Source: Chloroflexota bacterium
GTDB lineage: Bacteria > Chloroflexota > Ktedonobacteria > Ktedonobacterales > JADMIN01
DNA length: 44,971 nucleotides
NCBI GenBank assembly: GCA_021814145.1
Contig: JAKAIY010000010.1
Location: 1-44,971 of the forward strand
Direction: 5' to 3'
Numbering within the stretch: position 1 is the first letter of the stretch; each line of letters opens with the position of its first letter. The notes beneath the pieces are model-generated. The model was given only the letters and a program-made list of their open reading frames with translations. It made no database searches and was not told where the DNA came from. A program made the translations under genes and the position numbers. Shown here in pieces: positions 18,608 to 21,508 of the stretch.

Positions 18608-20149
18608 TCACGCGCCGAGCGGGACACCGCACACGCGGCAGTAGCGGGCCGCGGGATTGGTGGTCGAATGCCCGTTCGCGCAGATACGCATTCGGGGTGG
18701 CTCTCCGGGGGCTGGCTGGTAGGCGGGCGCGGGTGACCAGACAGGCGCGGGCGCCACGCTCCATGACCCAGTGAACATGGCTGGCGCGGGCGCGGGGGCC
18801 TGCGGCAGCGGGTCGCGGAACGGGTGCAGGAGATACGTCCCCAGCGCGAAGAGCAGCGGTGGCGGCGGCGCCATCACGCCCAGTCTCTCGCGGGCAACCG
18901 CCTCGCGCAGGAAGAAGCGCAGCAGCCAGATCCCGATGACTGCGGCTATCAGCACTCCCAGGTAGGGAACGCCATCCCAGAGCCCGTGGAGCGTCACCGC
19001 GACCGCGAAGGTGAAAACCACGCCAAAGGTCAGCTTGAAGCTGCGCTGGCCCCGGTCCCGCCAGATCGCGCCGACGATGATCGCCGTCCAGGTGACATGG
19101 CCGAAGATCGCCAGCAACCCGCGCAGCAGCAGCGTCGCGTTGAGCGGAGCCAGCCCGCCGCCATCCGAAAAGCCGCCGACATAGGCGACCAGCGCGTAGC
19201 CGATGGTTTCCAGCGTGGCGAAGCCCGCGCCCGCCGCCGCGCCCAGAATCACGCCGTCAATCTCGCTCCGCAGCCTCCGGTTGCGGATAAACCAGACGAC
19301 CGCCAGCGCCTTGCAGCTTTCCTCGATCAGCCCGACCAGCATCGCGTCGCTGAACGATTCGTTCGTCACGAAGACGCGCTCCAGGATGAAGGCCAGCGTC
19401 ACGCCGAGAAACGCGCCGCTAAAAAACGTCGCCCACGGAATCCAGCGCGGCATGTCGGCCAGGTAGTCGCTATCCCAACAGTAGATGAAAAAGCTGACCG
19501 GCATCAGCGCCGCCGCGACAGGGACTACCAGCCACAGCGCGGTGAGCCCCATTGACCCGTTGAGCAGGTATTCGGAGAAAACCAGCAGGCTGATTCCGAC
19601 CAGGAACACTTTCCAGTAGCGCTTGCGCCATTCCGCGCCCACCCACACGCTGAACCGCGCGCCAGCCGATGGCGTGACGCCCGTATGCTGGAAAGGCGCG
19701 GGCGCGGCGGGCTGCAGGGCCGTGGGTGGCGCTGGCGCCACGCCGCCTGCCGCTGGCTGGCCGGGCCACGGCTCCCTCCGCAGCGCGTAGAAGATCATGT
19801 CGGTGCGCCCGACGCGGATCACCTGCCCGGGCGTCAGGGGCGCCCGACCCGTGATACGGACGCCGTTCACATAGACACCGTTCGTCGAGCGCAGGTCCTC
19901 GATCTCGTAGCCCTGTGGCGTCCAGTAGATGACGGCGTGCACACGCGAGGCGTAGGGGTCAGAGAGCGCGATGTCGTTAGCGCCGAGCTTGCCGATATAG
20001 GTCCGCGGCTTGAAGAGCGGCGCCTGCGCGCCGTAGGCGTGCGCGCTGCGCCATGCGTCGCCCTGAATCACCAGGGTCGCGGGGTAAGGCGGAAAAGCGG
20101 GCGCGCCCGCGGCTGTGGCGGAGGGATAGTCTGGCGCGTTCAGCGGCAT
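18608..20149 (-). CDS. FHA domain - PrsW-type intramembrane protease - zinc ribbon fusion
   Basis: A 513-aa fusion. Residues about 45-120 form an FHA phosphothreonine-binding domain (RTYIGKLGANDIALSDP, SRVHAVI, LRSTNGVYVNG). A Pro/Ala linker follows, then a polytopic membrane domain (about 177-418) with the PrsW-family motifs: EESCK (Glu276, Glu277, Lys280), DGVILGAAAGAGFATLE (Glu314), His351 (FGHVTW) and His388 (LHGLWDG), the expected metal-ligand set of this peptidase family. A second Pro-rich linker leads to a C-terminal zinc ribbon (Cys490, His494, Cys504, Cys507). PrsW in Bacillus cleaves an anti-sigma factor; no sigma/anti-sigma pair is seen here. AAGGAGG precedes the ATG at 20149. It heads the YbjQ cluster and could release or gate partners bound by the FHA domain (inference). 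Confidence 0.85.
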   Translation of the reverse strand: MPLNAPDYPSATAAGAPAFPPYPATLVIQGDAWRSAHAYGAQAPLFKPRTYIGKLGANDIALSDPYASRVHAVIYWTPQGYEIEDLRSTNGVYVNGVRITGRAPLTPGQVIRVGRTDMIFYALRREPWPGQPAAGGVAPAPPTALQPAAPAPFQHTGVTPSAGARFSVWVGAEWRKRYWKVFLVGISLLVFSEYLLNGSMGLTALWLVVPVAAALMPVSFFIYCWDSDYLADMPRWIPWATFFSGAFLGVTLAFILERVFVTNESFSDAMLVGLIEESCKALAVVWFIRNRRLRSEIDGVILGAAAGAGFATLETIGYALVAYVGGFSDGGGLAPLNATLLLRGLLAIFGHVTWTAIIVGAIWRDRGQRSFKLTFGVVFTFAVAVTLHGLWDGVPYLGVLIAAVIGIWLLRFFLREAVARERLGVMAPPPPLLFALGTYLLHPFRDPLPQAPAPAPAMFTGSWSVAPAPVWSPAPAYQPAPGEPPRMRICANGHSTTNPAARYCRVCGVPLGA

Positions 20150-20304
20150 GCGCGCCTCCTTTTTCGCTTACAGCGACTCAACAACCCGCTCAGGCCCGCG
20201 TCTGCGCGCCCATGAAGATGCGGCGCGGAGGCCCCCGGCCTGGAGCCATGAGGAGGAAGCGCCGCCGCCTTTTTCTATTCGTTATCTTACTCGAATTAGG
20301 ATCG

Positions 20305-20518
20305 GTCGAGCGAAAGACCCCGCCCTTGCGGGCTGGGGATAGAAGTGAGTCCCTGCTTTCCGGGATACTGTCCGCATACCGTAGGGCCTGCGGAAATTCA
20401 CGCCTGTGGAGCGGAGCCGGCAACCAGGGCTCCAACGAACAGGTAAGACCAAACGGGCTTGCCTGTGCGGCAGTGTCCGGCCCCGGAATCCCACGGCTGC
20501 AGCCGTGGGGAGGGTCAA
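20305..20518 (+). mobile_element. solitary IS200/IS605-type right end / omega-RNA-like remnant
   Basis: About 210 bases between two genes that look like the 3' end of an IS605-family (TnpB) element on the plus strand. A hairpin at 20314-20335 (CCCCGCCC ttgc GGGC-t-GGGG) is followed by the scrap of TnpB coding sequence and then GGAAT plus a perfect 20-bp palindrome at 20490-20509 (arms CCCACGGCT / AGCCGTGGG) and GAGGGTCAA. That arrangement (GAATCCC-hairpin-GGG-TCAA) is the usual right end of such elements and the end of the omega RNA scaffold. No TnpA and no intact TnpB are present. The match is from family knowledge, not a search. Confidence 0.6.
20345..20446 (+). pseudogene. C-terminal scrap of a TnpB (OrfB) transposase-like protein
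   Basis: In one plus-strand frame ending at TAA 20444-20446 the sequence reads CPHTVGPAEIHACGAEP and then ATRAPTNR. The TVGxxxIxACG pattern close to the stop is typical of the extreme C-terminus of IS605-family TnpB proteins. Nothing upstream resembles the RuvC or zinc-finger parts, so only the tail is left. It lies inside the right-end remnant 20305-20518. Confidence 0.5.
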
Positions 20519-20543
20519 GCGAGATTTGCGGTGAGCGCGCCAC

Positions 20544-20579
20544 AAAAACGCGCCCGCCGGCGGATGGGCGCCGGCAGGC
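20544..20579 (-). terminator. rho-independent terminator after GerMN lipoprotein gene
   Basis: Stem arms GCC-c-GCCGGCG (20552-20562) and CGCCGGC-a-GGC (20569-20579) pair over 10 bp with one mismatch and a 6-base loop. On the minus strand the stem is followed by GCG then TTTTTG. It lies 45 bases after the stop of the gene at 20625-21263. Confidence 0.8.
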
Positions 20580-20624
20580 CTCAGTGAAGAAGCGTGACCT
20601 TCTGGCTCTAGCCGCGGGGAGCGA

Positions 20625-21263
20625 TCATTTCAGGCACAGGTTCTGCCCGCTCAGATCGTCGAAGCAGTCTCCCTTGGCGTCCAGAATCACCACATTTGTG
20701 ATGTTGGAGAACTGTTTCAGGGTGGCGTTGATTTCAGATTTGATGTACGCGCCGGAGAGATCGCCCGGCAGGCTGGTCGCGCGGCAGAACTGCAGCGTCG
20801 CGTAACCGGGCGCTGGCGTAGCCCCCTTGTAGTTGAGCGTGATCTTGAAGTCAGCGCCGCCGCAATTCGAGGGGCCGCTCAGCTTTCCCTGTATCTCGCT
20901 GAAGTAGCCAGCCGCCGCTTCAGAGGCGTTAGGCCCGGCGATGAGTTGCTGGATAGCGTAGGTCGCCACGCCGAGCGTGGGCGAGTACCGGTCCACCGGG
21001 AAGACCTTCGACGGATCGTTGTAAGAGTCTGGCTTCTTTGAGAAATAGACGAACACATGGTACGGCCCGCCGCTCGTCGCCGTTGGCTTGGCTGTCGCGG
21101 TCGCCACTGGCGCTGGCGCGGTGGCGGTCGCCGTCGGCGTTGGGCCAGCGCTCGGCGCGCCACAGGCCGCCAGCGCCAGCAGTGTGATGGCCAGGCCAGC
21201 GCCTGATATAGCGCGCGTGACGCGCCCTGTCATCGAGCGCATGCGCGACCATTTATTCCACAT
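20625..21263 (-). CDS. lipoprotein with GerMN-like domain
   Basis: A 212-aa predicted lipoprotein. The lipobox is LALAAC (Cys34), followed by a Thr/Ala/Pro-rich linker (about 40-70) and a roughly 140-residue globular domain (YHVFVYFSKKPDS onward) with TLGVATYAIQQLIAGPNASE and YFSEIQG, resembling the GerMN / sporulation-and-spore-germination domain found in cell-envelope lipoproteins. The role is unknown. The ATG at 21263 is chosen for AAGGAGA 6 bases upstream; the longer frame is Cys-rich and unlike protein. Four Cys in the mature domain may form disulfides. A clear terminator follows at 20544-20579. Confidence 0.75.
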   Translation of the reverse strand: MWNKWSRMRSMTGRVTRAISGAGLAITLLALAACGAPSAGPTPTATATAPAPVATATAKPTATSGGPYHVFVYFSKKPDSYNDPSKVFPVDRYSPTLGVATYAIQQLIAGPNASEAAAGYFSEIQGKLSGPSNCGGADFKITLNYKGATPAPGYATLQFCRATSLPGDLSGAYIKSEINATLKQFSNITNVVILDAKGDCFDDLSGQNLCLK

Positions 21264-21508
21264 AACCGGTCTCCTTGCATGTCCCACGCTCCATCGGGCG
21301 GCGCGCGGAGCCTCTCTACACCAGGGGCATTTATAGTGAAACGGCGTGAGGCTATCGCATGCGTCACAGTACGCCAGCGAGGCGTCACAACTCCATGCGC
21401 ATGCTTTCGCGCGAGCGGCTCTCTCGTCCTGCGCTCCTGACGCACGCGGCATGCCTTACGGAGACCCGCCTATTGATTGAAAGCTGAGTGAATTGGCGCA
21501 AAGACGGC

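Follow-up and report, generated by a model that had tools for sequence, protein, structure and literature searches.

Guide RNAs encoded apart from the nuclease that they serve have a precedent in the bacterial class to which the organism studied here belongs, the Ktedonobacteria: Altae-Tran et al. reportedly described, in 2021, that Ktedonobacter racemifer has standalone omegaRNAs belonging to IscB systems. These share with the element presented below the idea of a trans-encoded omegaRNA, but they serve a different nuclease family, and their guide is located at the opposite RNA end. For TnpB, a retention or gene-drive model is said to have been put forward by Meers et al. in 2023. According to a preprint, TnpB maintains or propagates the element by cutting the site that is devoid of it (PMC11870625); in such systems the nuclease is encoded in cis, whereas none is detected in cis in the family described here. 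In ISDra2, the TnpB-bound reRNA is derived from the 3' end of tnpB and the right end, a guide of ∼16 nt is taken from the flank, a TAM is located at the left edge, and retention of the element is modelled (PMC8612924). ISDra2 thus has tnpB in cis, while in the present family no tnpB is found, and we propose that its RNA starts at a site of its own. In its architecture the family is also akin to a PATE-like IS605 element of Halanaerobium hydrogeniformans, which combines a piece of the left end, the last 58 nt of tnpB and the entire right end in ∼271 nt, likewise without tnpA; PATEs are reportedly often moved by a transposase acting in trans (PMC7290912). However, the Halanaerobium sequence is the single one of its kind in its genome, and the passages on it describe neither promoter nor omegaRNA nor guide (PMC7290912), whereas the family presented here has several copies in four genomes, a covarying RNA and a −10-like box. 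Among the matches listed in a literature search, judged by title and beginning of abstract, no promoter-driven TnpB omegaRNA element devoid of tnpB is described, which we regard as weak evidence of novelty.

The window analysed here, a stretch of 44,971 nt, is contig 16 (C16) of an assembly comprising 3.93 Mb in 246 contigs (91.6% complete). It contains, at positions 20304–20518 (+), a short IS200/IS605-type element of ∼215 bp which has kept both ends and lost its enzymes. From 5' to 3', the element consists of a left-end hairpin, a −10-like box, a 143-nt omegaRNA-like scaffold, a perfect right-end palindrome and TCAA (Table 1), and the subterminal hairpins at its two ends (20318–20338 and 20490–20509) are as in the IS200/IS605 superfamily. 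No Y1 TnpA is encoded within it, and it is hence classified as a non-autonomous IS200/IS605 derivative. The right-end palindrome, the preceding hairpins, the TVGxxxIxACG tail and TCAA, all noticed in the original prediction, are present, and the absence of a transposase gene from the element was likewise seen correctly. The locus had been described as an orphan right end with a TnpB tail; the right end is indeed real, but the left end is present as well (20304–20352; 82–91% identity over 32–41 bp to the left ends of loci L003, L014, L017 and L018), and the tail is better read differently (see below). Directly to the left of the element lies a relic left end (20219–20272) which the original prediction did not mention, and the −10-like box had likewise gone unnoticed there. 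Two minus-strand ORFs flank the region, one encoding an FHA/PrsW-domain protein (18608–20149) and the other (20625–21452) without Pfam match.

Table 1. Features of the element and of its immediate surroundings. C32 is the contig of the same assembly that bears the second copy; R1 is a covariance model (see text).
Feature	Position	Strand	Basis or remark
Relic left end, TnpB-encoding type of element	20219–20272	+	83% over 54 bp to left end of G002:C279 element, E 2e-9
Left-edge pentamer GGATC (TTATC in five relatives; candidate TAM)	20299–20303	+	by eye
Whole non-autonomous IS200/IS605-type element	20304–20518	+	ends common to C32 copy (201/222 columns identical); TnpB-less relatives
Left end, with hairpin 20318–20338	20304–20352	+	97.6% vs C32 copy over 41 bp
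−10-like hexamer GATACT (C32 copy: TATACT)	20364–20369	+	6 nt before RNA start; no good −35 in window copy
omegaRNA-like scaffold	20376–20518	+	R1 model 151.4 bits, but itself an R1 training sequence; covariation
In-frame TVGPAEIHACG...stop, overlapping first RNA hairpins	20378–20446	+	tail type also in cis in TnpBs L058, L061
Right-end palindrome CCCACGGCTGCAGCCGTGGG, perfect 20-mer	20490–20509	+	sequence
Right edge TCAA	20515–20518	+	GTCAA ends 8/10 TnpB-less copies; other two GTCAT, GTCA
Flank, would-be guide	20519–20538	+	own-genome search, up to 3 mismatches

The existence in the same genome of a second copy with both ends (C32:8340–8561; same ends, 91% identity), along with relatives in other genomes, shows that the element is not a product of chance. 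The own-genome tally is small: apart from these two good copies, there is a decayed one on contig C8 (L004; 59.4 bits with R1) and an ends-only one on contig C151 (L003; G000:C151, 1440–1538), in which the left end is fused straight to the right end without RNA core and which has TTATC in front. Hence, the absence of related copies, which would have spoken against the original prediction, is not what is found. Short copies with common ends and without an ORF for mobility (C16, C32 and the ends-only copy on C151) are encountered as in PATEs and MITEs. A profile search of the assembly located TnpB (PF07282) at seven places and Y1 TnpA (PF01797) at three, none of them on the window's contig. DNA matches to the element are present in 10 of 61 genomes, the own one included, while searches of plasmid and phage collections returned no match to it and an exact-pattern search of viral contigs yielded 0 matches.

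R1, a covariance model built from seven TnpB-less copies with no tnpB locus in training, finds matches in 24 of the 47 genomes of the class (E ≤0.001). A selection of 55 of these loci was examined by use of tblastn with seven reference TnpB proteins in up to 1400 bp of upstream sequence (shorter in several), so that distant TnpBs could be missed: TnpB is found upstream in 37 loci and not in 18. Among the 37, one locus (L057) begins at a contig edge, and three (L068, L077 and L080) may also be TnpB-less, their match being limited to ∼20 tail residues. In the latter three, all from G043, these ∼20 residues precede the omegaRNA and the upstream junction is identical. We define the family as those TnpB-less loci that score at least 47 bits with R1. 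These number 10 of the 18 and are distributed over four genomes: three in the own genome (G000), three in G005, two in G008 and two in G010, the latter three genomes being of the same bacterial family as the own one. The remaining eight (L047, L050, L052, L053, L062, L063, L083 and L088; 22.4–42.9 bits) were set aside; L053 has, by eye, a TnpB-like stretch upstream, and L088 may be a chance match. Among these weaker matches, L047, L052 and L083 have one conserved upstream stretch in common, and L062 and L063 another; together with L050, the five perhaps represent further TnpB-less omegaRNA lineages.

The RNA strand of positions 20300–20540 folds at −113 kcal/mol (z −2.76), with 2 of 200 shuffles being equal or better. 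In a seven-row alignment (A3, with L004, L069 and L070 left out), which was used rather than the ten-row alignment A5 because the second hairpin is badly aligned in some A5 rows and the consensus is weaker, 94.0% of the cells pair, and changes on both sides are encountered in 11 of 36 pairs (23 cells); 0 of 500 shuffles reach these values, although the structure was derived from the same alignment as the counts and is thereby favoured. When the structure is slid along the alignment, 33–48% of the cells are paired, and a slide by +3 retains five pairs changed on both sides. RNAalifold counts 10 pairs for the seven copies, and an earlier seven-row set (L004 in place of L039) gave 10 compensatory pairs out of 37. 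The third helix provides an example, being formed by GGAGCC/GGCTCC in the own genome versus GGTGGC/GCCACC in G008.

As a check, the original prediction had named the comparison with omegaRNA models, and its outcome is divided. Rfam 15, whether or not an omegaRNA model is among its families, yields nothing at gathering threshold at the element, with five weak matches at chance level (E ≥1) there and two tRNAs elsewhere in the window. R1, however, fits not only the elements but also the better of the tnpB 3' ends. Because the right end of the ends-only copy L003 yields 31.9 bits, we count only the better matches to a tnpB 3' end plus right end (42.8–58.4 bits), that is, L044 of G045 (58.4 bits), L006 on contig C89 of the own genome (44.3 bits) and L025 (42.8 bits). 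The tnpB loci L026 (34.2 bits) and L027 (31.6 bits) score like L003 and thus add no support by score, which also indicates that much of the R1 score at tnpB loci comes from the right end. It is mainly through their first hairpin, GCCTGTGGAG and right end that the tnpB loci match; for the most part, helices 3–4 are skipped, and the alignments are full length by coordinates only. In L058 and L061, TnpBs of another family, the same ATACCG..CGGAAAT..ACGCCTGTGGAG stretch is located in cis with a tail YTA..AEIDACG, and this probably points to where the TnpB-less RNAs come from. In its resemblance to tnpB 3' end plus right end, in sequence as well as in structure, the scaffold is omegaRNA-like.

These findings bear on the in-frame tail. 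It is better read as the first RNA hairpins translated in frame than as a truncated protein gene: tblastn reveals no TnpB similarity upstream in the ten copies, and the translation ahead of the tail varies between copies and does not resemble TnpB, both of which disfavour a protein remnant. That the frame is open and similar in all ten copies counts for such a remnant, but is also expected if the RNA is conserved without insertions and deletions.

In front of the RNA, the ten loci of the family exhibit a −10-like box located 6 nt from the RNA start in nine cases and 7 nt in one. With the best hexamer at spacings of 5–8 nt, a range picked after inspecting the sequences of what are related loci, 42 of 60 positions match (shuffle mean 22.5; 0 of 2000 shuffles reach 42). 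At a fixed spacing of 6 nt the sum is 37, and the next best spacing gives 26. The same count amounts to 77/216 in the 36 tnpB-linked loci (the 37 minus L057; shuffle mean 85.7), and to 26/48 in the eight TnpB-less loci set aside (mean 19.7; 9 of 1000 shuffles), where spacings are mixed and none is common. The three G005 copies have, in addition, a −35 (TTGACT, TTGACT and TTGGCT) 17–18 nt upstream; in six of the ten loci the best −35 matches at no more than three of six positions, the −10 match is weak in L015 and L024 (3/6) and in the window copy (4/6), and a generic promoter scan of 20150–20650 found none. The pattern in the relatives suggests that the omegaRNA is made from the element's own promoter. 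Six tnpB genes with a placeable start have boxes matching at just 3–4 of six positions, counted without shuffle control, 6–7 nt before ATG, and those of L006 (TGTGCTATACG), L085 and L087 resemble the box of the TnpB-less copies. From these boxes we weakly infer that the family arose by an internal deletion which placed the RNA start behind tnpB's own, perhaps leaderless, promoter.

Comparison of eight pairs of copies shows flanks that are background-like (5' 20–45%, 3' 12–48% identical), while the RNA core is 56–96% identical. The core surpasses the left-end stretch in all eight pairs (this stretch takes in some flank for the window and C32 copies) and the promoter stretch in seven, and stays below the right end in five. 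Selection acting on the RNA would fit such a pattern but is not proved by it. Alternatively, the elements might be plain PATEs or MITEs which TnpA moves via their ends, with the RNA part kept by descent only and without any role in trans. The retention of both ends, the TnpA genes in the genome, the existence of the ends-only copy, the right end being the more conserved part in those five pairs and the PATE-like precedent in Halanaerobium (PMC7290912) would all accord with this. However, the RNA shows covariation, its start is accompanied by a −10-like box, and it extends for ∼110 nt inward of the right palindrome; its core exceeds the left-end stretch in every pair even if some flank is included for two copies, and L003 shows that ends can exist without RNA. 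We thus regard a plain PATE or MITE as rather unlikely.

At the left edge of the ten copies, as judged by eye, TTATC is present in five (L002, L014, L015, L024 and L069), TTATG in L039 and GGATC in the window copy, while the edge is not placeable in L004, L016 and L070. TTATC also precedes the C89 TnpB element and recurs in the window at 20282–20286, upstream of the element's left edge, and TCATC takes its place in six TnpB elements from the bacterial family (L026, L027, L055, L084, L085 and L087). Searches with the flanks in two genomes of the same genus (G001 and G002) and in G008 and G010 gave just diverged neighbouring genes and no empty site. Considering GGATC in place of TTATC and the weakening of the −10 to GATACT, it is probable that the window copy has lost integrity as a mobile unit, and it is likely hard to mobilise; it may still give RNA. 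These two alterations and the adjoining relic left end, as well as the decay of L004 and the reduction of L003 to its ends, are what one would expect if deletions of IS605/IS1341-type elements had left inactive end scraps that owe their RNA structure to the parent element. Yet one layout recurs in ten loci of four genomes with the −10-like box at a near-fixed distance, base changes among the copies are compensatory, and two copies in the same genome have common ends at unrelated flanks, so that for the family we deem this explanation unlikely. Of the three options in the original prediction, the non-autonomous element and the guide RNA scaffold are thus jointly supported for the family, and the dead remnant survives in part: based on its left-edge motif and −10, the window copy is likely partly dead.

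The copies combine both ends, unrelated flanks, a covarying RNA with likeness to tnpB 3' ends and a −10-like box at near-fixed distance, with no tnpB detected in cis. We consider it reasonably probable that they constitute a family of non-autonomous IS200/IS605-type elements which transcribe their own omegaRNA and borrow both TnpB and TnpA in trans, the expression and the trans action being what we infer from sequence. Such elements would retain just what must act in cis, namely the two ends and, between them, promoter and omegaRNA scaffold. RNA polymerase would start at ∼20376 and read through TCAA into the flank, so that each insertion would make its own guide (here 20519–20538). TnpB made elsewhere in the cell would take up the RNA, the nearest one in the own genome by tail clade being encoded on C89, and Y1 TnpA made elsewhere (from C10, C99 or C208) would move the element. 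The C89 protein (L006) has GVDIG, ESL and DRD, which we take to be TnpB motifs; since the clade with the best-matching tail (L058/L061) is in another family and identity to it does not exceed 43% over 96–100 residues among the TnpBs of the own genome (L006: 36–38% over longer stretches), we treat this protein only as a candidate partner. After excision, TnpB would cut the rejoined empty site and repair would restore the element, which would help retention as proposed for ISDra2 (PMC8612924).

With up to three mismatches, the window guide matches, apart from itself, two places in the own genome, both with three mismatches and neither standing after TTATC, while the reversed control matches six. 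A guide aimed at another site of the own genome is thus unsupported, and the paucity of off-site matches fits the self-site better than a regulatory role. This also bears on whether the host has exapted the promoter-driven omegaRNA, the flank-derived guide leading TnpB, or a dead version of it, to something that is then regulated or cut. In L016 of G005, identity to L039 is 48% in the left-end stretch and 81% in the RNA core, and the promoter-like pair TTGACT-17-TACACT is kept, as such use might entail; but the flanks, and hence the guides, differ in the pairs compared, and in view of the few matches of the window guide we regard use by the host as very improbable.

If elements with their own omegaRNA and borrowed enzymes are indeed what the family represents, TnpB guide RNA and nuclease would be separable in nature, as are crRNAs and Cas proteins, and a parasite of a parasite would gain retention without coding for the nuclease. 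The family would then also provide a natural test of whether an omegaRNA alone suffices to hold an element in place, and a source of natural, compact, promoter-driven omegaRNA scaffolds. It is possible, and we suggest this tentatively, that a guide-only transposon lineage exists in which a promoter-driven omegaRNA gene arises with every insertion, its guide being set by the landing site, and parasitises or serves any compatible TnpB in the cell, and in which some copies persist beyond their transposon ends as independent genes for guide RNAs.

Short elements of a second kind are present at L017 (1501–1850; G046:C7) and L018 (1501–1850; G045:C3), where a left end of the window type is combined with a different RNA-like stretch (AGAGCCCACAAGCC...), in front of which, in L017, TTGACC-17-TACACT is seen by eye.
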